Of a stretch of 64,000 bases of DNA, positions 11,701-64,000 are shown one piece after another. Source of the stretch: Macrocystis pyrifera (taxonomy: Eukaryota; Sar; Phaeophyceae; Laminariales; Laminariaceae). Made by a program: the position numbers and the translations under genes. The notes below the pieces were generated by a model that did not search any database, was not told the DNA's origin, and saw only the letters and a list, made by a program, of their open reading frames with translations. Within the stretch, counting starts at the first letter, position 1, and every line of letters begins with the position of its first letter. The stretch covers positions 1,860,001 through 1,924,000 of the forward strand of contig JASSKH010000026.1 of the NCBI GenBank assembly GCA_031763025.1. The letters are read 5' to 3'.

Positions 11701-12542
11701 AAACTTCAACGACACCATCAACAAAAAAATACTCCCACTATTTTCAAGCAAGCACTCAAACTCCCTGCCCTATTCCACCCTGCCCAACCGCGAAGGCCAG
11801 GACGATGCTGGCCCCCAGGTAGAACACGACGATCCACACACCCGTGGAAAACACGACACGCGGGGGACAAGGGCGCGAGGGCGGGAGCGAGCAAGCCCAC
11901 CGAGGCAACAACGCCTCGGCGATAAAACAAAAAATTGCCCGCCCATTCCATTTACAGACGATGCGCGAGAAGAGTCAGGATGGCAGCCAAGCGACGAAGT
12001 AGGGCATGCCACCATACCACCAGCACCAGCTCTGACACAACCCAAACCTCAAAATCTAGCCACCTCGCGCAAACCCTGACACGGAGATAGAGCACTACTC
12101 CGCGCCCGACATGGCGCTACCGAATTTCTGAGCGCAGGAATTTGCATGCCCACCTCCCCCAAAACCTCAAAGCCCAAAAACCCCCCCGACAAACTCCGGA
12201 CTCACACCATAACCCCGACCGACACGGCGCTTGAATTTCAAGTAGCGAACGTTTCCGTGCCAACCCGTACCCGTGCCCTCACCCGGCATGGCGCTACCGA
12301 ATTTCTGAGCGCAGGATTTGCATGCCCAATTCCCCCAAAAACGCAAAGGCCAAAACAAACCCTCGACAAACTCCGGACTCACACCATCACCCCGACCGAC
12401 ACGGCGCTTGAATTTCAAGTAGCGAACGTTTCCGTGCCAACCCGTACCCGTGCCCTCACCCGGCATGGCGCTACCGAATTTCTGAGCGCAGGATTTACAT
12501 GCCCACCTCCCCCAAAAACGCAAATCTCACAAACAAGCAGGC

Positions 12543-12803
12543 TCACGCTAATAACTGGACACGGCGCTTCAACCTCCAGCCCAAACGTACGTGCCCGCAA
12601 CTCCTACAAAGACAAGGCCAGAAAAGACAACACCACACGAGCAACAGGTACTTAGCTGACAGCTCTTGGAGTCCAGCCCACAGGTCTTCGTCTTGGCCGT
12701 CTTGAAGCACACCTTTTTGAGGGGGGAGAGAAAAAGGGACGGGGAGTGACCTCTGGGGCAAGAGCAGCAGCACCGCTAGCATAACCACGCTCAGGAGAAA
12801 CAC
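12543..12803 (-). CDS. Small satellite-encoded ORF with hydrophobic N-terminus (uncertain)
   Basis: An 86-codon frame starts MFLLSVVMLAVLLLLPQRS, which resembles a signal peptide or anchor. An acidic stretch (LQDGQDEDLWAGLQEL), a Cys/Trp-rich hydrophobic stretch and a basic end follow. The same frame is open in every complete unit: 14,129-14,389, 15,713-15,973, 17,297-17,557, 18,882-19,142, 20,467-20,730, 61,613-61,858 and within 63,020-63,415. The few differences are mild in this frame. They comprise one in-frame codon insertion (20,467 copy), two synonymous changes, one Glu to Asp change and two replacements in the last copy. Transcription is not shown. A chance frame in a young satellite remains a real alternative, because five of the units are nearly identical. 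Confidence 0.3.
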   Translation of the reverse strand: MFLLSVVMLAVLLLLPQRSLPVPFSLPPQKGVLQDGQDEDLWAGLQELSAKYLLLVWCCLFWPCLCRSCGHVRLGWRLKRRVQLLA

Positions 12804-13377
12804 TGCTCAAACTCAAAAAAAAAAAAAAACAAAGCGAAACTAAAACAAGAAAGAGAAAAAAAAAAAGAAAAGACCGCCCACAAAAAAAAGCGAAGTACAC
12901 TAGCTGCAGAACGTACAGGTCAGCCGCGCGCGCACAAGACTCCACGACACCATGAGCAACAAAATTCTCCCACTATTGAAGCAAGCACTCAAACTCCCTG
13001 CCCTATGCCGCCCTGCCCAACCAGGAAGTCCAGGACGATGCTGGCCCCCAGGTAGTACACGACGATCCAGACGCCTGTGGGAAACACGACACGCGGGGGA
13101 CAAGGGAGCGAGGGCGGGAGCGAGCAAGCCCACCGAGGCGAGAACGCCTCGGGGAAAAAAGAAACAAAAATGGCCTGCCCGCTCCCTCCACAGACGATGC
13201 GCGAGAAGAGTCAGGACGGCAGCCAAGCGACGAAGTAGGGCATGCCACCATAACACCAGCACCACCTCTGACACGACCCAAACCTCAAAACCTAGCCACC
13301 TCACGCCAATCCCGACACGGCGCTATAGCACTGCCCCTCGCCCGGCATGGCGCTACCGAATTTCTGAGCGCAGGGTT

Positions 13378-14082
13378 TGCATGCCCACCTCCCCCAAAAC
13401 CTCAAAGGCCAAAAGCCCCCCGACAAACTCCGGACTCACACCATAACCCCGACCGACACGGCGCTTGAATTTCAAGTAGCGAACGTTTCCGTGCCAACCC
13501 GTACCCGTGCCCTCACCCAGCATGGCGCTACCGAATTTCTGAGCGCAGGGTTTGCATGCCCACCTCCCCAAAAACCTCAAAGGCCAAAAGCCCCCCCGAC
13601 AAACTCCGGACTCACACCATAACCCCGACCGACACGGCGCTTGAATTTCAAGTAGCGAACGTTTCCGTGCCAACCCGTACCCGTGCCCTCACCCAGCATG
13701 GCGCTACCGAATTTCTGAGCGCAGGATTTACATGCCCACCTCCCCAAAAACCTCAAAGCCCAAAAACCCCCCCGACAAACTCCGGACTCACACCATAACC
13801 CCGACCGACACGGCGCTTGAATTTCAAGTAGCGAACGTTTCCGTGCCAACCCGTACCCGTGCCCTCACCCGGCATGGCGCTACCGAATTTCTGAGCGCAG
13901 GATTTGCATGCCCAATTCCCCCAAAAACGCAAAGGCCAAAACAAACCCTCGACAAACTCCGGACTCACACCATCACCCCGACCGACACGGCGCTTGAATT
14001 TCAAGTAGCGAACGTTTCCGTGCCAACCCGTACCCGTGCCCTCACCCGGCATGGCGCTACCGAATTTCTGAGCGCAGGATTT
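13378..14082. repeat. Example of the inner 176-bp subrepeat ladder
   Basis: In the second unit the junction motif (TGCATGCCC or TACATGCCC) lies at 13,378, 13,553, 13,729, 13,905 and 14,082, which gives steps of 175, 176, 176 and 177 bp. Each subrepeat contains the near-palindrome CTTGAATTTCAAG. The mixed step lengths shift the reading frame from one subrepeat to the next, which argues against a protein repeat. The same ladder is present in every unit of both blocks, with two to four steps. Confidence 0.9.
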
Positions 14083-17000
14083 ACATGCCCACCTCCCCCA
14101 AAAACGCAAATCTCACAAACAAGCAGGCTCACGCTAATAACTGGACACGGCGCTTCAACCTCCAGCCCAAACGTACGTGCCCGCAACTCCTACAAAGACA
14201 AGGCCAGAAAAGACAACACCACACGAGCAACAGGTACTTAGCTGACAGCTCTTGGAGTCCAGCCCACAGGTCTTCGTCTTGGCCGTCTTGAAGCACACCT
14301 TTTTGAGGGGGGAGAGAAAAAGGGACGGGGAGTGACCTCTGGGGCAAGAGCAGCAGCACCGCTAGCATAACCACGCTCAGGAGAAACACTGCTCAAACTC
14401 AAAAAAAAAAAACAAAGCGAAACTAAAACAAGAAAGAGAAAAAAAAAAAGAAAAGACCGCCCACAAAAAAAAGCGAAGTACACTAGCTGCAGAACGTACA
14501 GGTCAGCCGCGCGCGCACAAGACTCCACGACACCATGAGCAACAAAATTCTCCCACTATTGAAGCAAGCACTCAAACTCCCTGCCCTATGCCGCCCTGCC
14601 CAACCAGGAAGTCCAGGACGATGCTGGCCCCCAGGTAGTACACGACGATCCAGACGCCTGTGGGAAACACGACACGCGGGGGACAAGGGAGCGAGGGCGG
14701 GAGCGAGCAAGCCCACCGAGGCGAGAACGCCTCGGGGAAAAAAGAAACAAAAATGGCCTGCCCGCTCCCTCCACAGACGATGCGCGAGAAGAGTCAGGAC
14801 GGCAGCCAAGCGACGAAGTAGGGCATGCCACCATAACACCAGCACCACCTCTGACACGACCCAAACCTCAAAACCTAGCCACCTCACGCCAATCCCGACA
14901 CGGCGCTATAGCACTGCCCCTCGCCCGGCATGGCGCTACCGAATTTCTGAGCGCAGGGTTTGCATGCCCACCTCCCCCAAAACCTCAAAGGCCAAAAGCC
15001 CCCCCGACAAACTCCGGACTCACACCATAACCCCGACCGACACGGCGCTTGAATTTCAAGTAGCGAACGTTTCCGTGCCAACCCGTACCCGTGCCCTCAC
15101 CCAGCATGGCGCTACCGAATTTCTGAGCGCAGGGTTTGCATGCCCACCTCCCCAAAAACCTCAAAGGCCAAAAGCCCCCCCGACAAACTCCGGACTCACA
15201 CCATAACCCCGACCGACACGGCGCTTGAATTTCAAGTAGCGAACGTTTCCGTGCCAACCCGTACCCGTGCCCTCACCCAGCATGGCGCTACCGAATTTCT
15301 GAGCGCAGGATTTACATGCCCACCTCCCCAAAAACCTCAAAGCCCAAAAACCCCCCCGACAAACTCCGGACTCACACCATAACCCCGACCGACACGGCGC
15401 TTGAATTTCAAGTAGCGAACGTTTCCGTGCCAACCCGTACCCGTGCCCTCACCCGGCATGGCGCTACCGAATTTCTGAGCGCAGGATTTGCATGCCCAAT
15501 TCCCCCAAAAACGCAAAGGCCAAAACAAACCCTCGACAAACTCCGGACTCACACCATCACCCCGACCGACACGGCGCTTGAATTTCAAGTAGCGAACGTT
15601 TCCGTGCCAACCCGTACCCGTGCCCTCACCCGGCATGGCGCTACCGAATTTCTGAGCGCAGGATTTACATGCCCACCTCCCCCAAAAACGCAAATCTCAC
15701 AAACAAGCAGGCTCACGCTAATAACTGGACACGGCGCTTCAACCTCCAGCCCAAACGTACGTGCCCGCAACTCCTACAAAGACAAGGCCAGAAAAGACAA
15801 CACCACACGAGCAACAGGTACTTAGCTGACAGCTCTTGGAGTCCAGCCCACAGGTCTTCGTCTTGGCCGTCTTGAAGCACACCTTTTTGAGGGGGGAGAG
15901 AAAAAGGGACGGGGAGTGACCTCTGGGGCAAGAGCAGCAGCACCGCTAGCATAACCACGCTCAGGAGAAACACTGCTCAAACTCAAAAAAAAAAACAAAG
16001 CGAAACTAAAACAAGAAAGAGAAAAAAAAAAAGAAAAGACCGCCCACAAAAAAAAGCGAAGTACACTAGCTGCAGAACGTACAGGTCAGCCGCGCGCGCA
16101 CAAGACTCCACGACACCATGAGCAACAAAATTCTCCCACTATTGAAGCAAGCACTCAAACTCCCTGCCCTATGCCGCCCTGCCCAACCAGGAAGTCCAGG
16201 ACGATGCTGGCCCCCAGGTAGTACACGACGATCCAGACGCCTGTGGGAAACACGACACGCGGGGGACAAGGGAGCGAGGGCGGGAGCGAGCAAGCCCACC
16301 GAGGCGAGAACGCCTCGGGGAAAAAAGAAACAAAAATGGCCTGCCCGCTCCCTCCACAGACGATGCGCGAGAAGAGTCAGGACGGCAGCCAAGCGACGAA
16401 GTAGGGCATGCCACCATAACACCAGCACCACCTCTGACACGACCCAAACCTCAAAACCTAGCCACCTCACGCCAATCCCGACACGGCGCTATAGCACTGC
16501 CCCTCGCCCGGCATGGCGCTACCGAATTTCTGAGCGCAGGGTTTGCATGCCCACCTCCCCCAAAACCTCAAAGGCCAAAAGCCCCCCCGACAAACTCCGG
16601 ACTCACACCATAACCCCGACCGACACGGCGCTTGAATTTCAAGTAGCGAACGTTTCCGTGCCAACCCGTACCCGTGCCCTCACCCAGCATGGCGCTACCG
16701 AATTTCTGAGCGCAGGGTTTGCATGCCCACCTCCCCAAAAACCTCAAAGGCCAAAAGCCCCCCCGACAAACTCCGGACTCACACCATAACCCCGACCGAC
16801 ACGGCGCTTGAATTTCAAGTAGCGAACGTTTCCGTGCCAACCCGTACCCGTGCCCTCACCCAGCATGGCGCTACCGAATTTCTGAGCGCAGGATTTACAT
16901 GCCCACCTCCCCAAAAACCTCAAAGCCCAAAAACCCCCCCGACAAACTCCGGACTCACACCATAACCCCGACCGACACGGCGCTTGAATTTCAAGTAGCG

Positions 17001-20000
17001 AACGTTTCCGTGCCAACCCGTACCCGTGCCCTCACCCGGCATGGCGCTACCGAATTTCTGAGCGCAGGATTTGCATGCCCAATTCCCCCCAAAAACGCAA
17101 AGGCCAAAACAAACCCTCGACAAACTCCGGACTCACACCATCACCCCGACCGACACGGCGCTTGAATTTCAAGTAGCGAACGTTTCCGTGCCAACCCGTA
17201 CCCGTGCCCTCACCCGGCATGGCGCTACCGAATTTCTGAGCGCAGGATTTACATGCCCACCTCCCCCAAAAACGCAAATCTCACAAACAAGCAGGCTCAC
17301 GCTAATAACTGGACACGGCGCTTCAACCTCCAGCCCAAACGTACGTGCCCGCAACTCCTACAAAGACAAGGCCAGAAAAGACAACACCACACGAGCAACA
17401 GGTACTTAGCTGACAGCTCTTGGAGTCCAGCCCACAGGTCTTCGTCTTGGCCGTCTTGAAGCACACCTTTTTGAGGGGGGAGAGAAAAAGGGACGGGGAG
17501 TGACCTCTGGGGCAAGAGCAGCAGCACCGCTAGCATAACCACGCTCAGGAGAAACACTGCTCAAACTCAAAAAAAAAAAACAAAGCGAAACTAAAACAAG
17601 AAAGAGAAAAAAAAAAAGAAAAGACCGCCCACAAAAAAAAGCGAAGTACACTAGCTGCAGAACGTACAGGTCAGCCGCGCGCGCACAAGACTCCACGACA
17701 CCATGAGCAACAAAATTCTCCCACTATTGAAGCAAGCACTCAAACTCCCTGCCCTATGCCGCCCTGCCCAACCAGGAAGTCCAGGACGATGCTGGCCCCC
17801 AGGTAGTACACGACGATCCAGACGCCTGTGGGAAACACGACACGCGGGGGGACAAGGGAGCGAGGGCGGGAGCGAGCAAGCCCACCGAGGCGAGAACGCC
17901 TCGGGGAAAAAAGAAACAAAAATGGCCTGCCCGCTCCCTCCACAGACGATGCGCGAGAAGAGTCAGGACGGCAGCCAAGCGACGAAGTAGGGCATGCCAC
18001 CATAACACCAGCACCACCTCTGACACGACCCAAACCTCAAAACCTAGCCACCTCACGCCAATCCCGACACGGCGCTATAGCACTGCCCCTCGCCCGGCAT
18101 GGCGCTACCGAATTTCTGAGCGCAGGGTTTGCATGCCCACCTCCCCCAAAACCTCAAAGGCCAAAAGCCCCCCCGACAAACTCCGGACTCACACCATAAC
18201 CCCGACCGACACGGCGCTTGAATTTCAAGTAGCGAACGTTTCCGTGCCAACCCGTACCCGTGCCCTCACCCAGCATGGCGCTACCGAATTTCTGAGCGCA
18301 GGGTTTGCATGCCCACCTCCCCAAAAACCTCAAAGGCCAAAAGCCCCCCCGACAAACTCCGGACTCACACCATAACCCCGACCGACACGGCGCTTGAATT
18401 TCAAGTAGCGAACGTTTCCGTGCCAACCCGTACCCGTGCCCTCACCCAGCATGGCGCTACCGAATTTCTGAGCGCAGGATTTACATGCCCACCTCCCCAA
18501 AAACCTCAAAGCCCAAAAACCCCCCCGACAAACTCCGGACTCACACCATAACCCCGACCGACACGGCGCTTGAATTTCAAGTAGCGAACGTTTCCGTGCC
18601 AACCCGTACCCGTGCCCTCACCCGGCATGGCGCTACCGAATTTCTGAGCGCAGGATTTGCATGCCCAATTCCCCCAAAAACGCAAAGGCCAAAACAAACC
18701 CTCGACAAACTCCGGACTCACACCATCACCCCGACCGACACGGCGCTTGAATTTCAAGTAGCGAACGTTTCCGTGCCAACCCGTACCCGTGCCCTCACCC
18801 GGCATGGCGCTACCGAATTTCTGAGCGCAGGATTTACATGCCCACCTCCCCCAAAAACGCAAATCTCACAAACAAGCAGGCTCACGCTAATAACTGGACA
18901 CGGCGCTTCAACCTCCAGCCCAAACGTACGTGCCCGCAACTCCTACAAAGACAAGGCCAGAAAAGACAACACCACACGAGCAACAGGTACTTAGCTGACA
19001 GCTCTTGGAGTCCAGCCCACAGGTCTTCGTCTTGGCCGTCTTGAAGCACACCTTTTTGAGGGGGGAGAGAAAAAGGGACGGGGAGTGACCTCTGGGGCAA
19101 GAGCAGCAGCACCGCTAGCATAACCACGCTCAGGAGAAACACTGCTCAAACTCAAAAAAAAAAAACAAAGCGAAACTAAAACAAGAAAGAGAAAAAAAAA
19201 AAAGAAAAGACCGCCCACAAAAAAAAGCGAAGTACACTAGCTGCAGAACGTACAGGTCAGCCGCGCGCGCACAAGACTCCACGACACCATGAGCAACAAA
19301 ATTCTCCCACTATTGAAGCAAGCACTCAAACTCCCTGCCCTATGCCGCCCTGCCCAACCAGGAAGTCCAGGACGATGCTGGCCCCCAGGTAGTACACGAC
19401 GATCCAGACGCCTGTGGGAAACACGACACGCGGGGGACAAGGGAGCGAGGGCGGGAGCGAGCAAGCCCACCGAGGCGAGAACGCCTCGGGGAAAAAAGAA
19501 ACAAAAATGGCCTGCCCGCTCCCTCCACAGACGATGCGCGAGAAGAGTCAGGACGGCAGCCAAGCGACGAAGTAGGGCATGCCACCATAACACCAGCACC
19601 ACCTCTGACACGACCCAAACCTCAAAACCTAGCCACCTCACGCCAATCCCGACACGGCGCTATAGCACTGCCCCTCGCCCGGCATGGCGCTACCGAATTT
19701 CTGAGCGCAGGGTTTGCATGCCCACCTCCCCCAAAACCTCAAAGGCCAAAAGCCCCCCCGACAAACTCCGGACTCACACCATAACCCCGACCGACACGGC
19801 GCTTGAATTTCAAGTAGCGAACGTTTCCGTGCCAACCCGTACCCGTGCCCTCACCCAGCATGGCGCTACCGAATTTCTGAGCGCAGGGTTTGCATGCCCA
19901 CCTCCCCAAAAACCTCAAAGGCCAAAAGCCCCCCCGACAAACTCCGGACTCACACCATAACCCCGACCGACACGGCGCTTGAATTTCAAGTAGCGAACGT

Positions 20001-20816
20001 TTCCGTGCCAACCCGTACCCGTGCCCTCACCCAGCATGGCGCTACCGAATTTCTGAGCGCAGGATTTACATGCCCACCTCCCCAAAAACCTCAAAGCCCA
20101 AAAACCCCCCCGACAAACTCCGGACTCACACCATAACCCCGACCGACACGGCGCTTGAATTTCAAGTAGCGAACGTTTCCGTGCCAACCCGTACCCGTGC
20201 CCTCACCCGGCATGGCGCTACCGAATTTCTGAGCGCAGGATTTGCATGCCCAATTCCCCCAAAAACGCAAAGGCCAAAACAAACCCTCGACAAACTCCGG
20301 ACTCACACCATCACCCCGACCGACACGGCGCTTGAATTTCAAGTAGCGAACGTTTCCGTGCCAACCCGTACCCGTGCCCTCACCCGGCATGGCGCTACCG
20401 AATTTCTGAGCGCAGGATTTACATGCCCACCTCCCCCAAAAACGCAAATCTCACAAACAAGCAGGCTCACGCTAATAACTGGACACGGCGCTTCAACCTC
20501 CAGCCCAAACGTACGTGCCCGCAACTCCTACAAAGACAAGGCCAGAAAAGACAACACCACACGAGCAACAGGTACTTAGCTGACAGCTGCTCTTGGAGTC
20601 CAGCCCACAGGTCTTCGTCTTGGCCGTCTTGAAGCACACCTTTTTGAGGGGGGAGAGAAAAAGGGACGGGGAGTGACCTCTGGGGCAAGAGCAGCAGCAC
20701 CGCTAGCATAACCACGCTCAGGAGAAACACTGCTCAAACTCAAAAAAAAAAAAAACAAAGCGAAACTAAAACAAGAAAGAGAAAAAAAAAAAGAAAAGAC
20801 CGCCCACAAAAAAAGC

Positions 20817-49471: not shown

Positions 49472-50376
49472 CAGGGATTTTCGCGAGTCATGACCCGACC
49501 CGCGGGTCGCGTCACAGGGTGTTTAAAATGTCACGGGTCGGGTCGGGTCGGGTCGGGTCGGGTCAAGAAGTGTTCAAAATCGCACGGGTCGGGTCGGGTC
49601 GGGTCAAGAGGTTTTCAAATCTCACGGGTCGGGTCGGGTCGGGTCAAGAGTTTTTCAAATCTCACGGATCGGGTCGGGTCGGGTCAAAAGGTGATGAAAA
49701 GCTCACGGGGCGGGTCAGGTCATGACCCGCGAGAAACGGGTCACTCGCGGGTCGGGCCAGCGTGACCCGCGAGTTCTTTTCTGCTGATCCGCCGGTCGGA
49801 CCCGCGCATCCGGCCGGCGGATCCGACACTTGAAACACTTCCCGCTCTCTTACCCAAAGGCTTCTGTCGTACAAATACTCAATAATACTCCTTTGGTATA
49901 TTATTCAAACATTAACACACCGCCAAATCTATATCCGCATGCCCGCATCCATCCATACCCACTCCAGCCAAGCCGCACATCGCTGCTGGACACAAAAATG
50001 AATATTAAGTTGTTTTTGAAGTGTCGACCCTCGGGCCGGATCCGCAGGTCGGACCTGCGGGTCAAGATAAATAGTCTCGCGGGTCAAGGTGACCCGACCC
50101 GCATGAAACCCGTGTCTCACGGGTCCATCCGAAGGTGACGGGTCGGGTCGGTTCGGGTCAGGAGGTTGTGAAATCTCGCGGGTCGGGTCGGGTCAGGATA
50201 TTTTCAAATCTCACGGGTCGGGTCGGGTCGGGTCAACAACTTTTTAAATCTCGCGGGTCGGGTCGGGTCGGGTCGGGTCGGGTCGGGTCAAGAGGCTTTC
50301 AAAATCTCGCGGGTCGGGTCGGGTCAGCTGACCCGACCCGACCCGTGAGATTTGACCTGACCCGCGAAAAGCCCTG
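49472..50376. mobile_element. Non-autonomous hAT element with GGGTC arrays
   Basis: The left end is CAGGGATTTTCGCGAGTCA. The right end in reverse complement is CAGGGCTTTTCGCGGGTCA. The flanking 8-mers AAATTTTC and AAAGTTTC (49,464-49,471 and 50,377-50,384) differ at one base, as expected for an ageing 8-bp target duplication. The 905-bp interior has no transposase. It is dominated by (CGGGT)n pentamer arrays, built into a 40-50 bp minisatellite of the form CACGGGTCGGGTCGGGTCAA. The arrays run in opposite directions near the ends. Confidence 0.85.
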
Positions 50377-50717
50377 AAAGTTTCTGAAAGAAAAAAATCC
50401 CCGTCCCCTTTAATTTACTACCTGACTGGAACACCTTACACCAGTCAAAAAGAAAAAATGAAAAAAAGAAAAAATCAAACAGCAGAGCTTCTCTCTCAGC
50501 CTCGTACGCCGCCCGCCTCTCTCGCGACCATCTCGCCACCGATTCGATCCGGGAAAAGCTTTCCTCCCTCTCTTCCACAGTGAACCCCGCCGCCCGCCTC
50601 GCGTGAAGCTCGGTGCTCACCGTAGACCTCGTTCGCCAGCTCGACAATGTTGGTGCTCAAACTGGGTTTAATTTTCAGCCCGGTGGCAAAAATAAGCATC
50701 TCTTGAATATTATATTA
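50377..50717. other. Stretch between hAT element and LINE fragment
   Basis: Open minus-strand frames exist but none is long or domain-like. A 41-bp candidate exon was considered and set aside. Confidence 0.4.
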
Positions 50718-51077
50718 CAATGAGCGGCTGACCCGCCGGGTGATGTTTGGGACGATGGCTGGTGGGGAGAATCCAGGACTAGGCCGACCGGAAAGACCTG
50801 GACCCAATGCCTAGCAGACGACCTCAGGGTTTTTCAAGCCACCGAGGGGTACACGGAAAGCTCCCCTCTGCTGTTCGGAGTAGAAACGGTGTTATGGCCG
50901 AGGGCGGCTAAGAAGAGCAGGAAGTGGTACCGGGGGGTCGTCGACGCGGCGGACTGTTTCATGGCGAGGTGGCACAGGGACGAGGAACAGAGGAGCCGGC
51001 TACGCCACGCAGCTGAGGACGCCAAGAACGGCGACAACGGGAGGGAGGGAGGGAGGGGGGAAGGGCAGCCGTACTGA
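50718..51077 (+). pseudogene. LINE (non-LTR retrotransposon) 3' end of the reverse-transcriptase ORF
   Basis: Two overlapping frames give the tail of a LINE ORF2. RRVMFGTMAGGENPGLGRPE is followed in the next frame by KTWTQCLADDLRVF, then LLFGVETVLWPRAAKKSRKW and FMARWHRDEE, ending at a stop at 51,075-51,077. The TW..CL.DDL and W..AA..S..WY pattern is typical of the region after the RT domain in many LINEs. The frame change near 50,800 shows the copy is dead. It is 5'-truncated, as most LINE copies are. No poly(A) tail is evident directly after it. The family could be the retroposition partner of the SINE, but no shared 3' end was found. Confidence 0.6.
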
Positions 51078-52022
51078 TACAGCTGTCGACGAATGCAGAA
51101 ACGAAATGATAGATCGGGTGGCTAGGTATCGGTTCGACTAGCTCTTATAGACTGTTGCCATTAGCTCCCTCTCTTTCGTGTCGCTTCGCCCGCGCAATAG
51201 ATATCTGTTCTTCCTGAGTACGTATGCTGTGCGTCTGGCAGCCTTTCTGAAGTCCTTGCGTCGTTTGTATCCTGTTTTCATTTCAATATTTTTATTTTTT
51301 ATTGTCTTTTTGCTCTTATTTTTTTTTGTCCTGCTTGTGTTGTTGTGTTCTCGTACCTGGTACGCTGACATTTCACTTGCTTGACACTTGAATTTGCGAT
51401 TATTTTATTATTTTTGGTCTTCCTCTGTCTCACAGTCTGTGACCACGGAATCAGTATCTCTCTAGGATAAGGAATCAGGACGGACACTGGGTGTACTGAT
51501 GAAGCTGGGTAGAAAGGACGATTTAATGTGAAGACAACAACAACAACAACGATCCCGAACAACCTTTAAATACTCGTACGTACTCTATCAAAAATCACAA
51601 ATGGTGGCCAGACAGAGCCTATTGATGCATTCCTAGTGTCTCGAGGCACACGCGACGCCTAGGCACGAAAGCGGAGACCGCGCTCCTTGCAACTCCCCTC
51701 TACCCGCCAGCACCCGCTGACACCCGCGACAGTGCCAGGTTCGCCCGCGGCGCCGTGCTCGGAGTACACGCACGCACACGAAACGAAAGAAGAAAAAAGG
51801 AAAGAAGGACTGAAAGTACGAAAAGAAATGGAGAAAACAAAGACCTACTGGAAAGGTCCGGCAAGTAATAAAAGGAGACGATTTCCAAGTGGGAGCTCTG
51901 AGAGGCCAGGGATGTACCAACCGAGCACGCTCAGAGAGTGAGATATAAGTAAGTAGTTCTATAGATAGGCACATGCAAGCACTTTATTTCCGTGGAAGGA
52001 AAAGTGCCAACTACAACAACAA
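51078..52022. other. Intergenic stretch with repeat G
   Basis: It contains T-rich sequence (51,280-51,335) and repeat G copy 2. Low-complexity frames near 51,633-51,974 are not convincing genes. Confidence 0.4.
51425..51540. repeat. Dispersed repeat G, copy 2
   Basis: This is the partner of 46,024-46,140 and is followed by an (AAC)n run. Confidence 0.7.
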
Positions 52023-52140
52023 TATGGCAGAGAAGCGTATGAGAGATACTACTGATTTACGGAAGGATATTCGGTTTATATAGGAACGGCATATACGTTA
52101 CGCTATATTGTCGGAAGGCAGGCATAATAATAATATAACA
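52023..52140. repeat. Dispersed repeat D, partial copy
   Basis: It matches the second half of the copy at 34,436-34,597 (GAGAGATACTACTGATTTAC, GGAACGGCATATACG). Confidence 0.75.
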
Positions 52141-52474
52141 TCAATAAACTTTGTGCGTAATTTCTAATTTTCACTTAATATTACAAAATATCATCCAACC
52201 CTCCCGCTGTATCAAGAGGGGGGGGGGGACGAGAGGGTACATATGAAATACCTGAAAAGCTGCCCCCCCACTCTGTCCGGGCAGGATATCGATGAGTAAT
52301 AAACATTGTCGATCCTGATGATCATGGTTGACGTGGCACATTCCCCTCCGCCGGCAGCTCACAATGAACAAGAAAAATGCAATTGTATAACTACAATATA
52401 ATGAATGGAGTCATCTCATCATCATGCCGTTACATGCGACGGAAAGGGGGTGCCCACACATGGTAATATTGTCT

Positions 52475-53269
52475 TATTAAGATCAAGGTCGGGACACTTG
52501 TATCCCTGAACAGGTTTGCCTGTTAAGTCGGTGCTCGTTGGCACTCACGTGTGTTGTTTGGTTAGAGGTAGAAGAAGAGCAGCTTTATATTCCTTTCGTG
52601 CACGCGGAGACTGAGCCGAGCTCGTGCCTCGCTGGGAAAACCCTTAGTTTTCCATTTACGATACGCCTCCCGAGTACTACAAATACGACCCCAATACCTG
52701 AACCCAGGTAATTACCGGGTTTTCAGCCTCATTTAAGGCAGTATCATGACACTAGCCCACTCTGATTAGCCGTATATGCAGAATTATGGAAAATTCATGG
52801 AAACCCCGATTCCACGAACTAAAACATGAGTCGAAGATGCGGCGCCTCAAAACCCACTCCCACGCCTTTGAACGGTGAGGCAACGAAGCCGACAAGGTAC
52901 GGCAAAAAAGTAAGAAAGAAAGGAAGGCTTAGCCCTAAGGGGCAGGAATAAATCGTCACGAAAGCCATCGCCATACCACCCGCAACGGGGGGGGGGCGAG
53001 GAAGTTGCATGGAAAAGCAAAAAATGAACACCAAAAACGAGAAGAAAAATAACACGGGAGACGCGAAGAACCACCTAAACCCAGCCCATAACTCTGGAAA
53101 CGCGTCCTGTGCCACAAATGAGTGACCCGATTATCCAGGCCAGCCCCGACACTGAACGGGGGGGTAGACAGGACAAAATACGCAAAAGCCATCCCCAACC
53201 CAACCCAAGAAAAAACAAACCAGAAGTAATTACCGGGCTTTCAGCCTCGTTCAAGGCAGTATCATAGCA
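52475..53269 (-). mobile_element. LTR-element remnant, same family as 42.3 kb
   Basis: On the minus strand a full LTR (52,751-52,475, starting TGTCATGATACTGCC) follows an interior segment related to 43.7-44.2 kb, and a second LTR start lies at 53,269. LTR identity to the 42.3 kb copy is clearly lower than within that copy, so this is an older insertion. It is broken. Confidence 0.85.
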
Positions 53270-53452
53270 GTCTCCCCTGCAATAACCTGAGGAGGCCCAT
53301 CTACTTGATACAAGGATTACCCTGGGCTGTGTAGTCGAACGATATTTTACCCAGCTGTAGCTCATTAGGTAAACACCTTCACATTTGGCGTCATACTCGT
53401 ACTCGTAGGCTTCATGATACACCCAACTCCATCTACTGCCTGCTGCTAAGGT
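53270..53452. other. Short stretch between two LTR-element bodies
   Basis: A minus-strand open segment with Tyr-rich residues (HEAYEYEYDAKCEGVYLMSY) spans it. It has no family match I know, and its boundaries coincide with element edges. Possibly a displaced host exon, possibly chance. Confidence 0.2.
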
Positions 53453-56349
53453 CTTGGGGATTCGGCCGGTCCGGACGACAGCTTCCGCCGGGGCTCGGGC
53501 GGGGAAACTGGTGGCAGTTCGTCTCTGCGCAACGGGGCTGGACGGCGAAGAAACCGGGGGAAGGGGAAGGAGCGATCGGGTGACGGCCGGTACGGCCCAC
53601 GGGGCAACTCTGGTCGAGTTACTTCCCCCAGCTCTTCCTCGGACGGCGACACCAGAGCCCCCGTTCCAGCGAAGCACGCAATCAGCAAGAGGCAAGTGAT
53701 CCCCTCGCTGACTGAGGTTGCTTCTTCCGCCGCGCGTCTTGGTCGTTTGACCATGCTCGATGACCGTGCCATGCCTGTGTCATCTAACCTTGCTCGCGAC
53801 CGAACTCGATCGACTCCGCCGCCGCCACCGCCGCAAAACAGCACACTGCCGACGTCCAACGGGCGTACAAACGCCTGGGATTGAAGGATATTTCGCGCAT
53901 TTCTGTCTTGCCTTTCCCCTCCTCGATCGACCCTTGCGAGGCCGCGCAGCAACTCACGCGTTCGGTCAAGGCCTCCGCCTCTGATATTCTCATGATGTGC
54001 AACGATGGCAGCCATGAAGGCCTTAGTTCTACTAACTGGATCCCCGGTTGGGAGTACCCTCTCAAGAAATCCTTCGCGCGCGCCATCACGCCTGACAAGC
54101 CTACGACCGCCCCTCTCACTACCTTGATGGATGGTTTTTTTAGACAGGTGTCGCGCGCCCTCGCAGCAGGATCGACGGGACCGGAGGCGTTCACGCTCCT
54201 CCTGAGGTTGCTGAGCAACCACTTCGACCGCACCAACACGGGGGCCAGCTACACCAAGTTGCATAATTTTGGCGTGGCTAACGGGACCCCTTTTTGCGAT
54301 TTTAGTCGTGCATGGCGAGGGGTGGTGTCCGCAGCGACGGGGACTGAGCGTGTTTTGGCACCGGGGGTGGAAGTAGTTCGGATGGCAGTGAACGAGCAGT
54401 ACCTTAGCTTGATGCCCACGCTGTACCCGGGAGTTTTGGCTACGGTATCGAGGCCGTTCGGCACTTTGGACGCCATGTGGTTAGCTTTCGAGACTCTAGC
54501 GAATAAAAAGACACCTGCCGTCAACGGCGAAAAATATTTTTCTTTGCCTGCTTCTTCAACGGGTGCGCGGTCATCCGCCCCGTCGGGCCCCGGCCCGCCA
54601 ATATTGGTCGCGGCCAGGGGCGGACGTTTCCCCAGTCGCCTTCTTGGCAGACGAGATCGCGCAATAATCCGCTTGTGATGAATGTCCACAAATCCATCCC
54701 TGACTGCCTCGACCCGTGGCTTGACACCTCTTCCAACTGCTGGCCCCTTGAAGAACACCACTATACCGAAGTTCACGCCGTTTGCATGTCCATCCACACC
54801 GAGGACCCTCCCCTTTGGAGCGGCCTACTTTCATCGTCCGCTCGCGCAGCCGCCCTCAGCGAAAACCGAGGACGCTATTTAAACTGTCACGAAGACACAC
54901 ACTCTCTTCGACAGTGTAGACACCCCTTCTTAAACCTTAGTGGTATCTTGAACCCCGACCTCGGAACGCTCGGCGACGACGGCGAGGCGTTCCGTCGTTG
55001 GCAAGAACGCATGATCAGACACCGCCGCGAGAACAATTCAAGACCGAACAAACACAACCAGAAGAAACACAGGCGTCGTCCCGGCCACTCGCGTGGGCAA
55101 CATCACGGTCAGGGTCAGCAAAACAGACAAGGTGACGGCTACAACACACACGCGGCACGAGGACACCCGCAGTCTCACTCCGATCATCATGGTGGTGGTT
55201 CGACCGCCCCTGCTTCTTCCGCCCCGGCTCCCATCTCGGGGGTTCGCTACGGTGCCTCGCATACCTCGGGCGGAAACCCGAATGGACGCCAGACAGGTAC
55301 CTTCCGCGCCGGTAACTGACAGGTCGACGGCGGTTCGGCTCCTCCTGCCCGCCCGCCGCCAGCATTGTCGGGAGAAAAAACCTTGATTTCACAAGATGCT
55401 CGCGTCCCAGGCTCGCTCAGTACTCCGCTCCCCCCCCGCGCGTTACTCCGTACTTCGGACCGACGCAGCGACTCAGCTCCACTGCTTTCTCCGGGGAGCC
55501 CCAGGGCGCCTCCCCCGACGTCGGGAGCCCGCGCCTCAAACGCCGCTCCCCTCAACATGGGCACGAGAGCAGGCGCGATAAACGCCTCTCTCCCAAACCA
55601 CGCACCGCGCAACACGACGGGTGTCGCGCCGTCGCGTCGTTTTTTTCAGCGAGGGTGTCCCCCTCCTACACCTCCCGACCATGCGGTGGCGGTCGGTTTG
55701 AGGTGCGGGAAGGCAAACACCGAAACCCCGAGATCTCGGTTGAAGCTCGACTCGGCGTTTCCTCGCAATAACGGTGGCCGCTCCACCCTGTTTCCTATTG
55801 AGGAAGGGTCGACAAGATTAGCTACCTCGTCCCCCTTCCCCACCAGGTCTACAGGACGGAAGCCCTCTCCGGTGGACCCTTTGTTGCCCCCCACCCGAGC
55901 ACCGTTCTTGAAGACGTCTACAGGGTCTGCAGGCCCTCTTTCGTCCTCGCGCACGCCACTCCACGTGCGCAGCGCTCCTTCGGCTCCAGTGGAACAGGAA
56001 AAACCTGGCACTGTCCGTCGAGCCAGTGGTGACTCCACGGCCTCCGGTCAGATCAACCGGACAGCATACCCGTTAAATTCGGAAGAATCGCAGCTCTCGT
56101 CAAGCAGAACGGGCTCAGAGCCTCCTGCCCCCTTTGGTCCAGGACAGAGATCATCGGGCGCAGCAAGAGAACCTTCTGGCGATTTTTTGCCTACGGGCAA
56201 TGGTGACACAGAGCCAGTATACGTGGAACCGAACTCGTCTCGTGCACCAGGGGCTCAGTGTTCTCAGAGAAGCACACTCCCCCCCCGACACGCCGCAACT
56301 GCGGCCACCGACGACTCGGCACCGTCAGTCTTTGACCCTACTCTCGAGT

Positions 56350-56860
56350 ATACAACGGAGCGGGTGGTACTGTTCTGGCATCCCCCCTCTTATTTTTCGC
56401 AGTGGTCCCCCTCGTGTTTTGTCATCGACGATGCGCCATATTCCTGCGCGGAGCAGTATATGATGGCTGAAAAGGCTCGCCTTCTCCAGGATCACGGCAC
56501 AGCGGAGCGGATTGTGGCCTCGCCAGACCCACGCGAGCACAAACGCCTTGGTCGAGGCGCGCATAACTTCGACTGCGCTATCTGGGACCGTGTTCGGGAA
56601 GACGCCGTCCTTGCTGGTAATTTTGCCAAATTCTCGCAGAACCCGGTCATGAAGCAGCACCTATTGAGCACTGGCACCAAATTTTGGCTGAAGCCAGCCC
56701 TTTTGATGCCGTGTGGGGCTTCGGTCTGCGGGCAGACGACCCCGAAGCTCACGACCCCTCTCGGTGGCATGGAAAAAAATTGCTCGGTAAAGTTCTTTCC
56801 GCCGTTCGCGACGCCCTCCGATCAAGTAGGCCGGGTTGGCACACCCCGCCTCTCTCATCA
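56350..56860 (+). other. NADAR (YbiA-like) domain part of the Ty3 element
   Basis: The segment shows the family order: FSQWSPSCF near the start, CAEQYMMAEKA (the EQY...KA signature), LGR in the middle, FAKFSQNP, and near the end SPFDAVWGFGL and LLGKVL. NADAR proteins act on NAD- or ADP-ribose-linked substrates. Bacterial YbiA cleaves N-glycosidic bonds of riboflavin intermediates, and other NADARs remove ADP-ribose from guanine. Here it lies between the gag and protease parts of a retroelement. Activity is not claimed for this fossil copy. Confidence 0.75.
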
Positions 56861-57925
56861 ATTCTGCACCCCAACCAGACCTGACAGAATTCATGAGATT
56901 ACACCAGCGCCGCCCCGCCCTTTGGCTGAGCCCTCGCTTGCCCAGGTCCTCCTTTGGAGTTTTCGACCTGTTTTTCTGACGCGCCGGCTGATCACAGCCC
57001 CGAGATTTTGGCTGTCGCACCTAGTGTCGACCCCTCCCTCGCGCTGCCAGAACATGGCCCCTGCCTCGTCGGGGGCACCATTACCCTCGATGACGCCTCT
57101 TTTACAACGAAAATCGCGATTCTCAGGGGAGCTGGCGTTCTTGCACCTTTTGATTGCGTGGCGCTTCTTGACACTGGTTCCCCGCAGACTTTCACCCGAC
57201 GAGATGTTTTGGATCGCATGCACTCGGTTGGTGCGGCATCCCTCGCGTGCGAGCAGAAAGGCGCCCCTCGTTCCTGGGGGGGGGTTGGCGAATCGGCCCC
57301 TCTGAAGACTTCGACGAGTGTGCGCCTGAGCGTTCAATTATCTCGAGAAAATGAGCCTACTTGCTCCCTCGCAGTTTGGGCCTACGTGGTCCCCCCCTCG
57401 GTGATGCAGCATGCTGTACTATTAGGACGTGACAGCTTGATGCGTTTTAATAGCCGCTCCTACCGCTCTCTGCCACCTCGGCCGTCTGATCAACGCGTTT
57501 TTGGCGAGCTAGAGTTAGTTCACCACGCCCCGACAGGCATGTCCGTGTACGCCATCGACCCCGCCGCTTCGGGTGGAGGCTTCCATCTACGCTACGAGGG
57601 CGCAGCAGGCGTCACCCTGTCCGACGATCCCCAGCTGCTTGCTGTTAACTTTGTTCGAAGCGATCGCTCCCCGGCCCTACTGGACACTACTTGGTCGACA
57701 TGATGCCCCAGCCCGACCTACCCTCGGTCGAGGAGCACTTCGTCTCCTCCGGACGACAGGTTCTTCCCCTCGTTGGAGTGGCGGCCCTCGAGCCGGGGGA
57801 TGTCCTCGGCGTCGCCCACGCCCCACTGCTGAGCGTCCCCCTGGACGTTTTGCAGCAGGACAACCGAGCCCCCAGCCCTCCCTCCGGACTAGGTGAGGTG
57901 TGTTCGGTTCCAGCAGTTACTGCCC

Positions 57926-58318
57926 CCCCCCTCGCAGCTCTTTACTCTGCACAAGGGAATTGATCGTATCACGTAGTGTGCAAGGTAAGGCACCCAAGAG
58001 GCAGTTACATAGTACTCCCATTGCTGTCTCTGGAAGTGGCCAACCGGAAATTAAACTAACTCATTGAAGCTGTCATCCATATGCAAGAAAGTCCGCCTCA
58101 CAAGCGGTTCTTAGTAGGATGCAGCTCACCCTTCATGCGACTCGCCGGACACCTCACGGCGCTTCGCGCTTGGTGCAAGCAATGTCTGCCTGGTCGGTGA
58201 AAACCCGACATGCTCCGTCCCGGCATTGTAGGGATGCGAGGGTCTATGGTCATACGACTACGGCCATGCATGAGATCGAGTACATCTCTCTTATCGAGTA
58301 CACCCCCCCTCGCAGCTC
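57926..58318. repeat. Segment bracketed by a direct repeat inside the Ty3 element
   Basis: The word CCCCCCCTCGCAGCTC occurs at about 57,926 and again at about 58,303. The stretch between them includes about 140 bp that also occurs near 33,330-33,450 outside any Ty3 element. This fits a small element inserted between the protease and RT parts, with a duplicated target. Confidence 0.55.
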
Positions 58319-60218
58319 CAGCCTCGCCCTCGCCTGCACTGCTTGTGCGTTTGACCTCAGAACAGCGCGCTTCGTTCCTGCGCGTCTGGGCACGCTTGCC
58401 GTCACATCTGCAGGAGGTGACTTTTGATCTCCACGGCGCAGGCTGGACCCCTGCGGTCATCGAACAGCTGGGGGACGTTCTCTGCGAATTTCCTGACGTT
58501 TTCTCGAAGTCCAAGTCGGATTTTGGTTCCTGCTCGTTGATGACTTTCGTGATCTCGGTCCCGGAAGGAAGCACTCCTGTCACGTCCAGGCCGCACCGCA
58601 TCAACCCCATCCTGGCCAAGGAAGTGGAGGCCACCTTGGATCAGTACCTAGCGGCAGGTCTGATCCAGCACTCGACTTCCCCGTATTCGAGCCCGCTGGT
58701 GGTCATCCCGAAGAAGTCTGGAGGCGTTCGGATCACCGTGAACTACAAAAAACTCAACCAGATCAGCCAACTCAGCCAGCTGCCTATTCCTCGCGTGGAC
58801 CAAATCCTCGACTCCCTGGGGAAGGGACGGGTGTTTTCCCTCTTCGATTTGGTCTCCTCGTTCCACCAGATTACCGCGCACAAGGACACCGTCCCTCATA
58901 CGGCGTTCTGCACTCCCACGGGCCTTTACGAGTGGCTCGTCATGCCCCAAGGCAGCAATGCTTCGCCCGGCTGGTTCGTCAAAGTGATTAACGAAGTCAT
59001 TAAAGGCCTGGCACAAGTGGCGGCCTACCTTGATGATGTGATCGTTTTCGACTCTGACCCGACGGCCCACGTCCGGACGATACGAGCCCTCTTCGAACGC
59101 CTGCGCAAACACAACCTCAACCTCTCTCCCTCGAAGGCTCGCCTCGGCGCCACGGACGCCAATTTTCTGGGTCACTCCATTTTCGCCCGCGGGTATAAGC
59201 CCTAATGCGGAAAAAGTTTCGGCTTTGCTGAAAATGCCCATGCCCAAGGACCTCAAGCAGGTCCGCGCCCTAATGGGCGGCGTAGGATATTATCGCAAGT
59301 TCCTGCCCGATCTGTCTAAACGGATACGTCCTCGCACCGCCCTTCTCCGGAAGGGGGTCAAGTATGTCTTCACGCCGGCTATGGAAGTTATCGTCCGCCA
59401 GATCCTCGCCAAGCTCGCGGCCCCACCGATTTTGGTTTTCCCTGACTGGGATGCCGTAGCCGACGGCTTCCGCCCCTTCCACGTGTACTGCGACGCCTGC
59501 ATCGACGGTTTCGGTGCCGCGCTCGAACAAGAACAACCGGACGGCTCGGTACGGCCCATTGCTTATATCAGCCGCGCTACCCTCGATTCCGAAAGGCACT
59601 AGGAACCGTTGGACCTGGAAGCTGGCAGCATTTTCTGGGCCATCAAACGACTCCGAGGTTACCTGTGGGGCACGAAATTTCGAATATTTCCGGACCACAA
59701 AGCACTTGAGAGTATCGGCAAAGTAGGGGACCACAACGCGCACGTCCAGCGGTGGATCGAGTTCCTCACCGCGTTCGACTACACCCTCGAGTACCGCAAG
59801 GGCAGCGCCAACGGAAATGCTGACTTTCTCTCCCGTTTGCTAGAGCCCGCCACAGAACACGACCGCAGTGGATCTAGCTGCCTCAACCCCGTCGAGGACG
59901 GTGGTATCTTCCTCATCCAAGACTGTGGGCTTCGCACTCACTCTTCGCCGACCCCTGGTGTCGGTTTGGGTGGGCTGGTGTCCCGCAGTGAAAGTGCCGT
60001 CTTGGGTGGGCTACCTCTCGCCTCTTCGGATTTTCGCGATTTTCGCACACACGGGCCACGTATGAGGATTGACGACCTCTCTGCTCCTTCGGGGAGATTC
60101 GTCGCTCGTGTATCTGCTTCCGTCGCCACCGTCGATCGCCGTCCTACTTTGGGGGACTTTTCACCCCTCGCCAACGCTGCTTTCGCTTCGGCTTTTGTCG
60201 TACCCTCCGGGGGCGCCC

Positions 60219-60466
60219 GGGCTCTGCAGAAGCCCCCGCTGCAGCGATGATTGTCGCCAGGTCGCTCCTCCCCCGACGAGCACTTTACAGGTCGAAGATT
60301 CCGTCGTGAGCACTGCTCCGTCCGCGTGTTCCCTTTCATGCCAGGGCTCCGCAGAAGCCCCCGCTGCAGCGACGATTATCGCCCAGCGTGCTCCTCCCCC
60401 GACGAGCACTTTACAGGGAAAAGATTCTGCCGTGATCACTGATCCGGCCGCGTCTACCCCATCGCC
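60219..60466. repeat. Tandem duplication of about 124 bp in the Ty3 tail region
   Basis: GGGCTCTGCAGAAGCCCCCG at 60,219 recurs at 60,343, followed each time by GACGAGCACTTTACAGG. The two copies differ at several positions. Confidence 0.8.
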
Positions 60467-61029
60467 GCCTGGCAACCCGGCGCCTCCGAACGTTTTGCCG
60501 TCTTCAGGCCGCATCTCATCGCGGACGCGCCGACGAACAGCCGCCGCCGCTGGCGCCGTGCCGTCTGCTGTTGATTATGGCTTCGGGCCCTGCGGGACCC
60601 CTAGACCATCAGCCCGGCGTGCTATCACCCCGCTGCGAGCCCCACGGCCGCGACCGCCCGCACCCGTCGTTTTAGCCCCGACTCTTGCCGCCTCGTCCGT
60701 CCCGACGGTACCAATCCCGTCCGGCCGCGACCGCACCGAGCCCGTGGGAGCTCCTCCTTTAATACTTCCGCCGCCAACTGACGCACCTCCCGTCACCTCG
60801 ACCGACTTGGGCGCCCACGGCGCAGCTGCCGAGTTTCAGTTCGGTGATTTCCGCAGCACGCTATTCGCACGCCGACTGGGCTCGGGAACAACAGGCTGAG
60901 CCTTCGTGCACTGCCGCCATGCGCTGCATAGCCCTTGGCCGACCGGAAGTTTTGCCAGACGACTTTTTATCAGGTTTCCCTTCCCACCAGCGCCTTCCCT
61001 TCTCGTAAGATCAAGAGCTGGCCACCAAG

Positions 61030-64000
61030 GATTTACATGCCCACCTCCCCAAAAACCTCAAAGCCCAAAAGCCCCCCCGACAAACTCCGGACTCACACCA
61101 TCACCCCGACCGACACGGCGCTTGAATTTCAAGTAGCGAACGTTTCCGTGCCAACCCGTACCCGTGCCCTCACCCGGCATGGCGCTACCGAATTTCTGAG
61201 CGCAGGATTTACATGCCCACCTCCCATAAAAACGCAAAGGCCAAGAAAACCCCCCCCGACAAACTCCGGACTCACACCATCACCCCGACCGACACGGCGC
61301 TTGAATTTCAAGTAGCGAACGTTTCCGTGCCAACCCGTACCCGTGCCCTCACCCGGCATGGCGCTACCGAATTTCTGAGCGCAGGATTTACATGCCCAAT
61401 TCCCCCAAAAACGCAAAGGCCAAAACAAACCCCCGACAAACTCCGGACTCACACCATCACCCCGACCGACACGGCGCTTGAATTTCAAGTAGCGAACGTT
61501 TCCGTGCCAACCCGTACCCGTGCCCTCACCCGGCATGGCGCTACCGAATTTCTGAGCGCAGGATTTACATGCCCACCTCCCCCAAAAACGCAAATCTCAC
61601 AAACAAGCAGGCTCACGCTAATAACTGGACACGGCGCTTCAACCTCCAGCCCAAACGTACGTGCCCGCAACTCCTACAAAGACAAGGCCAGAAAAGACAA
61701 CACCACACGAGCAACAGGTACTTAGCTGACAGCTCTTGGAGTCCAGCCCACAGGTCGTCGTCTTGGCCGTCTTGAAGCACACCTTTTTGAGGGGGGAGCG
61801 AAAAAGGGACGGGGAGTGACCTCTGGGGCAAGAGCAGCAGCACCGCTAGCATAACCACGCTCAGGAAACACTGCTCAAACTCAAAAAAAAAAAAAACAAA
61901 GCGAAACTAAAACAAGAAAGAGAAAAAAAAAAGAAGAGACCGCCCACAAAAAAAGCGAGGTACACTAGCTGCAGAACGTACAGGTCAGCCGCGCGCGCAC
62001 AAGACTCCACGACACCATGAGCAACAAAATTCTCCCACTATTGAAGCAAGCACTCAAACTCCCTGCCCTATGCCGCCCTGCCCAACCAGGAAGTCCAGGA
62101 CGATGCTGGCCCCCAGGTAGTACACGACGATCCAGACGCCTGTGGGAAACACGACACGCGGGGGACAAGGGAGCGAGGGCGGGAGCGAGCAAGCCCACCG
62201 AGGCGAGAACGCCTCGGGGAAAAAAGAAACAAAAATGGCCTGCCCGCTCCCTCCACAGACGATGCGCGAGAAGAGTCAGGACGGCAGCCAAGCGACGAAG
62301 TAGGGCATGCCACCATAACACCAGCACCACCTCTGACACGACCCAAACCTCAAAACCTAGCCACCTCACACCAATCCCGACACGGCGCTATAGCACTGCC
62401 CCTCGCCCGGCATGGCGCTACCGAATTTCTGAGCGCAGGGTTTGCATGCCCACCTCCCCAAAAACCTCAAAGGCCAAAAGCCCCCCCGACAAACTCCGGA
62501 CTCACACCATCACCCCGACCGACACGGCGCTTGAATTTCAAGTAGCGAACGTTTCCGTGCCAACCCGTACCCGTGCCCTCACCCGGCATGGCGCTACCGA
62601 ATTTCTGAGCGCAGGATTTGCATGCCCAATTCCCCCAAAAACGCAAAGGCCAAAACAAACCCTCGACAAACTCCGGACTCACACCATAACCCCGACCGAC
62701 ACGGCGCTTGAATTTCAAGTAGCGAACGTTTCCGTGCCAACCCGTACCCGTGCCCTCACCCGGCATGGCGCTACCGAATTTCTGAGCGCAGGATTTGCAT
62801 GCCCAATTCCCCCAAAAACGCAAAGGCCAAAACAAACCCTCGACAAACTCCGGACTCACACCATCACCCCGACCGACACGGCGCTTGAATTTCAAGTAGC
62901 GAACGTTTCCGTGCCAACCCGTACCCGTGCCCTCACCCGGCATGGCGCTACCGAATTTCTGAGCGCAGGATTTACATGCCCACCTCCCCCAAAAACGCAA
63001 ATCTCACAAACAAGCAGGCTCACGCTAATAACTGGACACGGCGCTTCAACCTCCAGCCCAAACGTACGTGCCCGCAACTCCTACAAAGACAAGGCCAGAA
63101 AAGACAACACCACACGAGCAACAGGTACTTAGCTGACAGCTCTTGGAGTCCAGCCCACAGGTCTTCATCTTGGCCGTCTTGAAGCACACCTTTTTTAGGG
63201 GGGAGAGAAAAAGGGACGGGGCGTGACCTCTGGGGCAAGAGCAGCAGCACCGCTAGCATAACCACGCTCAGGAAACACTGCTCAAACTCAAAAAAAAAAA
63301 ACAAAGCAAAACTAAAACAAGAAAGAGAAAAAAAAAAGAAGAGACCGCCCACAAAAAAAGCGAGGTACACTAGCTGCAGAACGTACAGGTCAGCCGCGCG
63401 CGCACAAGACTCCACGACACCATGAGCAACAAAATTCTCCCACTATTGAAGCAAGCACTCAAACTCCCTGCCCTATGCCGCCCTGCCCAACCAGGAAGTC
63501 CAGGACGATGCTGGCCCCCAGGTAGTACACGACGATCCAGACGCCTGTGGGAAACACGACACGCGGGGGACAAGGGAGCGAGGGCGGAGCGAGCAAGCCC
63601 ACCGAGGCGAGAACGCCTCGGGGAAAAAAAGAAACAAAAATGGCCTGCCCGCTCCCTCCACAGACGATGCGCGAGAAGAGTCAGGACGGCAGCCAAGCGA
63701 CGAAGTAGGGCATGCCACCATAACACCAGCACCACCTCTGACACGACCCAAACCTCAAAACCTAGCCACCTCACACCAATCCCGACACGGCGCTATAGCA
63801 CTGCCCCTCGCCCGGCATGGCGCTACCGAATTTCTGAGCGCAGGGTTTGCATGCCCACCTCCCCAAAAACCTCAAAGGCCAAAAGCCCCCCCGACAAACT
63901 CCGGACTCACACCATAACCCCGACCGACACGGCGCTTGAATTTCAAGTAGCGAACGTTTCCGTGCCAACCCGTACCCGTGCCCTCACCCAGCATGGCGCT
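61030..64000. repeat. Higher-order satellite array, right block (open at window edge)
   Basis: The same satellite as at 11.7-20.8 kb begins in mid-subrepeat at 61,030. One partial unit (to about 61,961) and one complete unit of about 1,404 bp (marker ATGAGCAACAAAATTCTCCC at 62,017 and 63,422) are followed by a third that runs off the window. The shorter unit has three inner subrepeat steps instead of four, which explains the difference of about 179 bp from the 1,583-bp units. These units are more diverged from each other and from the left block than the left-block units are among themselves. Confidence 0.95.

Follow-up and report, generated by a model that had tools for sequence, protein, structure and literature searches.

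A NADAR domain was found as a recurrent component of a Ty3/Gypsy-type retroelement lineage in the brown alga Macrocystis pyrifera, lying before the protease in two element families and largely retaining its active-site residues in both. The DNA analysed (the window) is a stretch of 64,000 nucleotides, and genome-wide searches covered 537 Mb in 223 contigs. An earlier note on the window had reported the domain and regarded its combination with a Ty3 element as the most novel in the window. However, a NADAR-bearing Gypsy lineage (Gypsy-12_Ec32 and kin) was published for Ectocarpus in 2025 (PMC12477816; this and the other papers are cited from their accessible parts), which was the only report of the combination found in the literature searched. 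The element described here is a further case of the reported kind, to which it adds a second genome, evidence on the active site and on selection, and a family-B derivative without reverse transcriptase (RT).

The element copy in the window

Using an intact copy as tblastn query, the NADAR domain was located at 56358-56836 of the window, where a Ty3/Gypsy-type element has its gag region upstream and its protease downstream of it. The interval given in the earlier note (56350-56860) proved accurate. The Pfam model PF08719, whose curated cut-off is 35.1 bits, matched in two pieces, with profile positions 2-117 at 56373-56681 (E 1.7e-27, 97.1 bits) and positions 117-163 in another forward frame at 56678-56821 (E 3.1e-12, 47.5 bits). 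Chance was excluded because either piece alone exceeds the cut-off, and the order of the tblastn matches agreed with the location between gag and protease that had been proposed. The domain is split by a frameshift near 56680, so that it cannot be read through in this copy, which is a dead element. In the broken domain, the codons for the active-site glutamate, lysine and glutamate are all three still present. The features of the copy, which belongs to the family designated A, are compiled in Table 1. A DTG motif in 57050..57535 was taken to be the aspartic protease motif.

Table 1. Features of the family-A element copy in the window.
Feature	Position	Strand	Basis
gag region	53908..54627	+	assigned by position; no Pfam match
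proline-rich linker, gag to NADAR	55659..56342	+	query match and sequence
NADAR, frameshift near 56680, E/K/E codons present	56358..56836	+	Pfam and tblastn
aspartic protease region	57050..57535	+	tblastn match; no Pfam match
protease-RT intervening region, three matching pieces	57536..58419	+	query match
reverse transcriptase, RVT_1, E 7.2e-28	58510..59202	+	Pfam and query match
RNase H, internal stop	59207..59833	+	Pfam and query match
RNase H-integrase linker	59834..60830	+	query match
integrase region, start only, 18% of query	60850..60999	+	query match

From protease to RT, the window copy has about 370 bases more than most family-A copies, perhaps owing to an insertion; L019 and L026 are also longer at this place. 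A 177-bp satellite starts at 61028, just past the end of the integrase match. Satellite repeats of 176-177 bp are present at 12105-20448 and 61028-64000, arranged in longer repeat units with a higher-order spacing of about 1.58 kb in the first block and 1.4 kb in the second. GGGTC-rich direct repeats were seen at 50138-50328, with the gag region following some 3.6 kb downstream.

Copy number, position and reading frame

The genome contained 1264 NADAR candidates (PF08719). The best 150 were scored and all of them passed the cut-off (160-181 bits vs 35.1), so restriction to a single copy, which the earlier note had named as evidence against its proposal, was not what was found. For 20 of the 150 scored NADARs, 10-kb loci were fetched, 18 of which belonged to family A and 2 to family B. 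Linker, NADAR and protease followed each other in this order in 18/18 family-A loci. Protease, RT and RNase H were likewise arranged in that order in all 18, with integrase next in 13; in the other five, the locus breaks off (L018, L020), is masked at this point (L019) or ends first (L021, L026). Based on the order protease-RT-RNase H-integrase of the predicted domains, the element is of the Ty3/Gypsy type. No LTR-like pair was detected in four 10-kb loci or in window 50000-64000, stretches that may not reach both ends of an element.

A second sample comprised 20 loci that were hand-picked from matches to the window protease and none of which has a NADAR among the 150 scored. NADAR was found, whole or in part, upstream of the protease in 19 of these loci, with L035 and L046 retaining only 34% and 26% of it, and L040 showed no NADAR in the stretch read. 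The domain was in one piece without a stop in a single locus (L042, 96% of the query). This sample understates NADAR intactness, since among the 60 best protease copies, the window aside, 22 have a scored NADAR (of the 150) directly upstream. The recurrence of NADAR at the same place in many copies, which the earlier note had named as support for its proposal, is therefore seen in both samples of family A as well as in family B (see below).

In L012, L018 and L028, a single open frame contains both NADAR and protease, which places NADAR in the N-terminal part of Pol. Upstream of NADAR, seven of the eight loci examined have a motif of the presumed Pol frame that is shifted by +1 relative to gag; the eighth, L024, gave no match. 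The motif is assigned to Pol from L012 only, in which its frame is open through NADAR (877 residues), and its frame differs from the NADAR frame in the other six loci.

NADAR class and active site

When a profile of eight element NADARs was compared with PDB sequences, it matched the Phytophthora nicotianae protein 8BAU (E 2e-25) and E. coli YbiA 2B3W (E 1.1e-9). The active-site residues E, K and E of the element domain align to Phytophthora E43, K50 and E125 with one constant offset of two; the roles of the catalytic E and K and of the class-position residue were taken from PMC11543638 and PMC11125620. Broken copies included, these residues were present in 36/36, 33/36 and 34/37 readable cells of family A and in 20/23, 21/23 and 23/23 of family B. 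The corresponding counts for 160 fetched bacterial, archaeal and viral-contig relatives were 159/160, 159/160 and 160/160. The class-defining position of the element NADAR is occupied by E, not D or H. As judged from the profile match, the catalytic E and K and the class E, the domain is a YbiA-class member of the NADAR superfamily (PF08719). Identity as a DarT1-linked NADAR (BC4488 class) was rejected, because the class position holds E rather than aspartate and the genome gave no DarT match in a search that ignored introns. The NADARs assayed in PMC11543638 had guanine-linked ADP-ribose in DNA as their substrate, and YbiA-class NADARs are able to strip ADP-ribose off guanine bases of DNA (PMC11543638, PMC11125620).

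Element families and origin of the domain

Family B is represented by 14 copies (L023, L028, L051-L062), in which NADAR is found at the same place as in family A, before the protease. The two families are 48-49% identical in NADAR, 57-58% in protease, 61% in integrase (L028) and 81% in RT (L051, L052). A family-A gag query gave no match in two family-B 10-kb loci. A late unrelated insertion, the second outcome that the earlier note had considered fatal to its proposal, was rejected because both families carry NADAR at a homologous position beside a homologous protease; the homology around the domain also covers integrase (in L028) and RT (in L051 and L052). The broken state of the window copy might in itself suggest chance, an artefact of the assembly or a late unrelated insertion that affects one copy only. 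The probability of this explanation is negligible given the 150/150 scored candidates above the cut-off and the same place of NADAR in the 18/18 NADAR-picked family-A loci and in the family-B loci, and a single-copy or artefact reading is ruled out by these candidates and family-A positions.

The NADAR pieces of L235-L238 represent two further groups, C and D, which share 47-59% identity with A, with B and with one another. For these loci the NADAR letters alone were read, in open frames listed as 345-2349 residues, so that they count as NADAR groups and not as element families. The nearest relatives found for the element NADARs were bacterial, at most 58% identical (80 loci kept of 228), followed by viral contigs, at most 56% identical (80 of 84). 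In a tree of 151 rows (136 relatives, left from 160 after thinning, 13 element rows and 2 PDB rows), families A and B were placed in a poorly resolved region together with myxobacterial, planctomycete and viral-contig NADARs. The tests gave no rejection of a single clade of element NADARs (p-AU of 0.992 and 0.93 for 11 and 15 element rows, values above 0.05 being no proof of one origin), and trees in which the element NADARs were constrained to one clade scored better than free trees. The tests included all 67 bacterial and archaeal rows and 25 and 20, respectively, of the 69 viral rows, and the decayed L043 and L045 were left out. In the simplest reading of these sequences, NADAR was probably gained once, before the split of A and B, from a bacterium-like or virus-like source.

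Selection on the domain

Plain pairwise dN/dS among copies was rejected as misleading, since the domain used for picking always looked more constrained: NADAR-picked copies gave 0.35 for NADAR and 0.54 for protease, whereas the closer protease-picked copies gave 0.26 for protease and 0.70 for NADAR. Because of this dependence on the choice of copies, a comparison between families and a comparison of shared with single changes were used. Between families A and B, NADAR showed a dN of 0.47-0.48 and a dS of 1.9-2.4, the latter near saturation and imprecise, with a pN/pS of 0.49-0.51. The pN/pS values elsewhere were 0.43-0.46 for protease, 0.39 for integrase, 0.20 for RT and 0.60-0.61 for a linker. 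Measured by these ratios, the long-term constraint on NADAR is slightly weaker than that on protease and integrase, much weaker than that on RT and stronger than that on the linker.

For recent family-A copies, changes common to at least three copies were compared with changes seen once. With few changes in some cells, the ratio for shared changes was 0.36 in NADAR over all copies, 0.33 in the protease-picked and 0.41 in the NADAR-picked set. It was 0.06-0.15 in protease, 0.04 in RT, 0.06 in integrase, 0.11 in RNase H, 0.19 in the protease-RT stretch, 0.41 in gag, and 0.54 and 2.25 in two linkers, and the ratios for single changes were 0.34-0.89. The difference between shared and single changes in NADAR reached a Fisher p of 0.079 (all copies) and 0.051 (protease-picked), and among NADAR-picked copies the shared changes gave a ratio (0.41) no lower than that of the single changes (0.34). 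NADAR was less constrained than protease among recent copies (Fisher p 0.028), and its shared changes were no different from those in the RNase H-integrase linker (Fisher p 1.0). The excess of silent over replacement change that the earlier note had expected thus holds between A and B (dN about 0.47, dS about 2); among recent family-A copies, the constraint on NADAR, as estimated from these ratios, is slight and of borderline significance.

A family-B derivative without reverse transcriptase

Twelve of the 14 family-B copies (L023, L028, L053-L062) have lost almost the whole of RT and RNase H, seemingly at a single junction; L051 and L052 are the only copies with RT, which was read for its first 135 residues only. 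In the ten RT-less copies matching on both sides of the junction, the frame of the RNase H tail is shifted by +1 from that of the RT start. A 301-base junction query yielded 687 first-look candidates, and 40/40 scored places matched over 299-301 bases at 97-100%. The deleted form has therefore multiplied, although a few of these matches may come from duplicated contigs (C48 and C161 are identical there). A scored NADAR was located 1.71-1.77 kb upstream of the junction in 29 of the 40 loci. Nine of the remaining 11 had a NADAR match, which was in one piece without a stop in three (L224, L227 and L229; over 144/160 residues in L227), and L228 and L232 had none in the piece read. RT-less copies retain NADAR and protease, some with breaks in the protease. 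The shared changes of NADAR in this RT-less family were 1 silent and 4 replacement, and the single-change ratio was 0.42.

Host context

All host searches ignored introns, so that the absence of a match is weak evidence. DarT had no match in a six-frame search of the genome, which other ADP-ribosyltransferases could escape. There were one exon-sized PARP match and three Macro domain matches above the cut-off, two of them partial, which together make a host ADP-ribose metabolism likely. For Tpt1/KptA, one contig had four exon-like matches in the expected succession, and a further match was elsewhere; the four pieces likely represent a host gene for the RNA 2'-phosphotransferase Tpt1/KptA (G000 C194:9969620-9975998). 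A search with the Phytophthora stretch gave 796 candidates, of which 150 were scored; many of these were element copies, four others were read, and no host NADAR was recognised among them. The EsV-1-7 family is hugely expanded in the genome (1585 candidates, 150 scored, all above the cut-off), an expansion that is a mark of brown algae. RuBisCO, used as an organism marker, had no match.

Possible functions of the element NADAR

The best-known settings of reversible nucleic-acid ADP-ribosylation are bacterial toxin-antitoxin systems and phage conflicts (PMC11125620). The explanation tentatively favoured here is that NADAR serves as a particle-borne YbiA-class de-ADP-ribosylase that would act for the element on its own nucleic acid. 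In this Ty3/Gypsy-type lineage, where it is fixed in the N-terminal part of Pol, it would be made as part of Gag-Pol and enter the particle of the element. There it may hydrolyse guanine-linked ADP-ribose, or a related ADP-ribose adduct, on element RNA or cDNA, so that the template would stay readable in the face of ADP-ribosylation by the host, by viruses or in connection with damage. Its position, the conserved active site, the many copies and the long-term deficit of replacement relative to silent change count for this explanation, whereas the lack of a DarT match, the single exon-sized PARP match and the weak recent constraint count against it. Alternatively, NADAR could act on RNA, protein or a small molecule.

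The presence of a Tpt1/KptA gene in the same genome would be in line with a role of NADAR in element RNA processing, on Tpt1/KptA-made ADP-ribose compounds or RNA ends, instead of counter-defence, but it says little, as Tpt1 is widespread. This role is possible, if doubtful: RNA processing was proposed by the Ectocarpus authors (PMC12477816) and NADARs have been linked with RNA repair (PMC9503650), yet the activity reported for the NADARs tested in PMC11543638 is on guanine-linked ADP-ribose in DNA. NADAR is unlikely to remove soluble ADP-ribose signals or the protein ADP-ribosylation of host immunity while leaving the nucleic acid of the element untouched. The three Macro matches and one PARP match, with the ADP-ribose metabolism that they make likely, would accommodate such a target, and soluble targets have been proposed for phage NADARs and macromolecular ones for RNA-virus NADARs (PMC9503650); tethering in Pol, however, would be better suited to a target nearby than to a soluble signal. 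It is similarly unlikely that catalysis is irrelevant and NADAR is a structural or nucleic-acid-binding spacer of Gag-Pol, or drifting cargo. Its far greater divergence than that of RT between A and B (48-49% vs 81% identity) and a shared-site ratio not different from that of the RNase H-integrase linker (Fisher p 1.0) would agree with a spacer or cargo, but even broken copies have kept the three catalytic residues almost without change and the long-term constraint is near that of protease and integrase.

That the lineage kept the active-site residues of NADAR while splitting into families provides a lead that nucleic-acid ADP-ribosylation could play a part in the genome conflicts of a multicellular eukaryote. 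A more speculative and quite improbable extension combines a counter-defence de-ADP-ribosylase, directed against a system, of the host or of a virus, that ADP-ribosylates nucleic acids and is yet to be described, with the RT-less family-B element as a satellite. The latter would bring its own NADAR and protease to helper particles, with NADAR working in cis on the packaged RNA.

Comparison with known systems

The element was set beside the Ectocarpus lineage by description, not by sequence. In Ectocarpus, too, the nearest outside NADARs are bacterial, and the lineage has a C-terminal chromodomain that is called putative (PMC12477816). In M. pyrifera, two stretches that extend beyond the integrase core (L028:7371-9527 and L015:3-1826) showed no chromodomain or other Pfam match in that part. 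The RT-less derivative, found here in family B, has no mention for the Ectocarpus lineage in the accessible part of PMC12477816. The genomes differ in size, with 537 Mb here and 200 Mb in Ectocarpus. The Tx1 elements of the Pacific oyster are likewise NADAR-bearing retroelements, with the domain in ORF1, but they are LINEs and not LTR elements, and their NADAR matches are called divergent (PMC12477816). In RNA viruses, NADAR is similarly embedded in a polymerase-containing polyprotein and has been proposed to counter host ADP-ribosylation (PMC9503650); these are different elements, likened here by description. The NADAR of Phytophthora nicotianae (PDB 8BAU, PMC11543638) is not described as part of a mobile element in the accessible part of that paper. 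It is the best-matching solved structure, has the same three active-site residues and is 35-39% identical to the NADARs of L235-L238.
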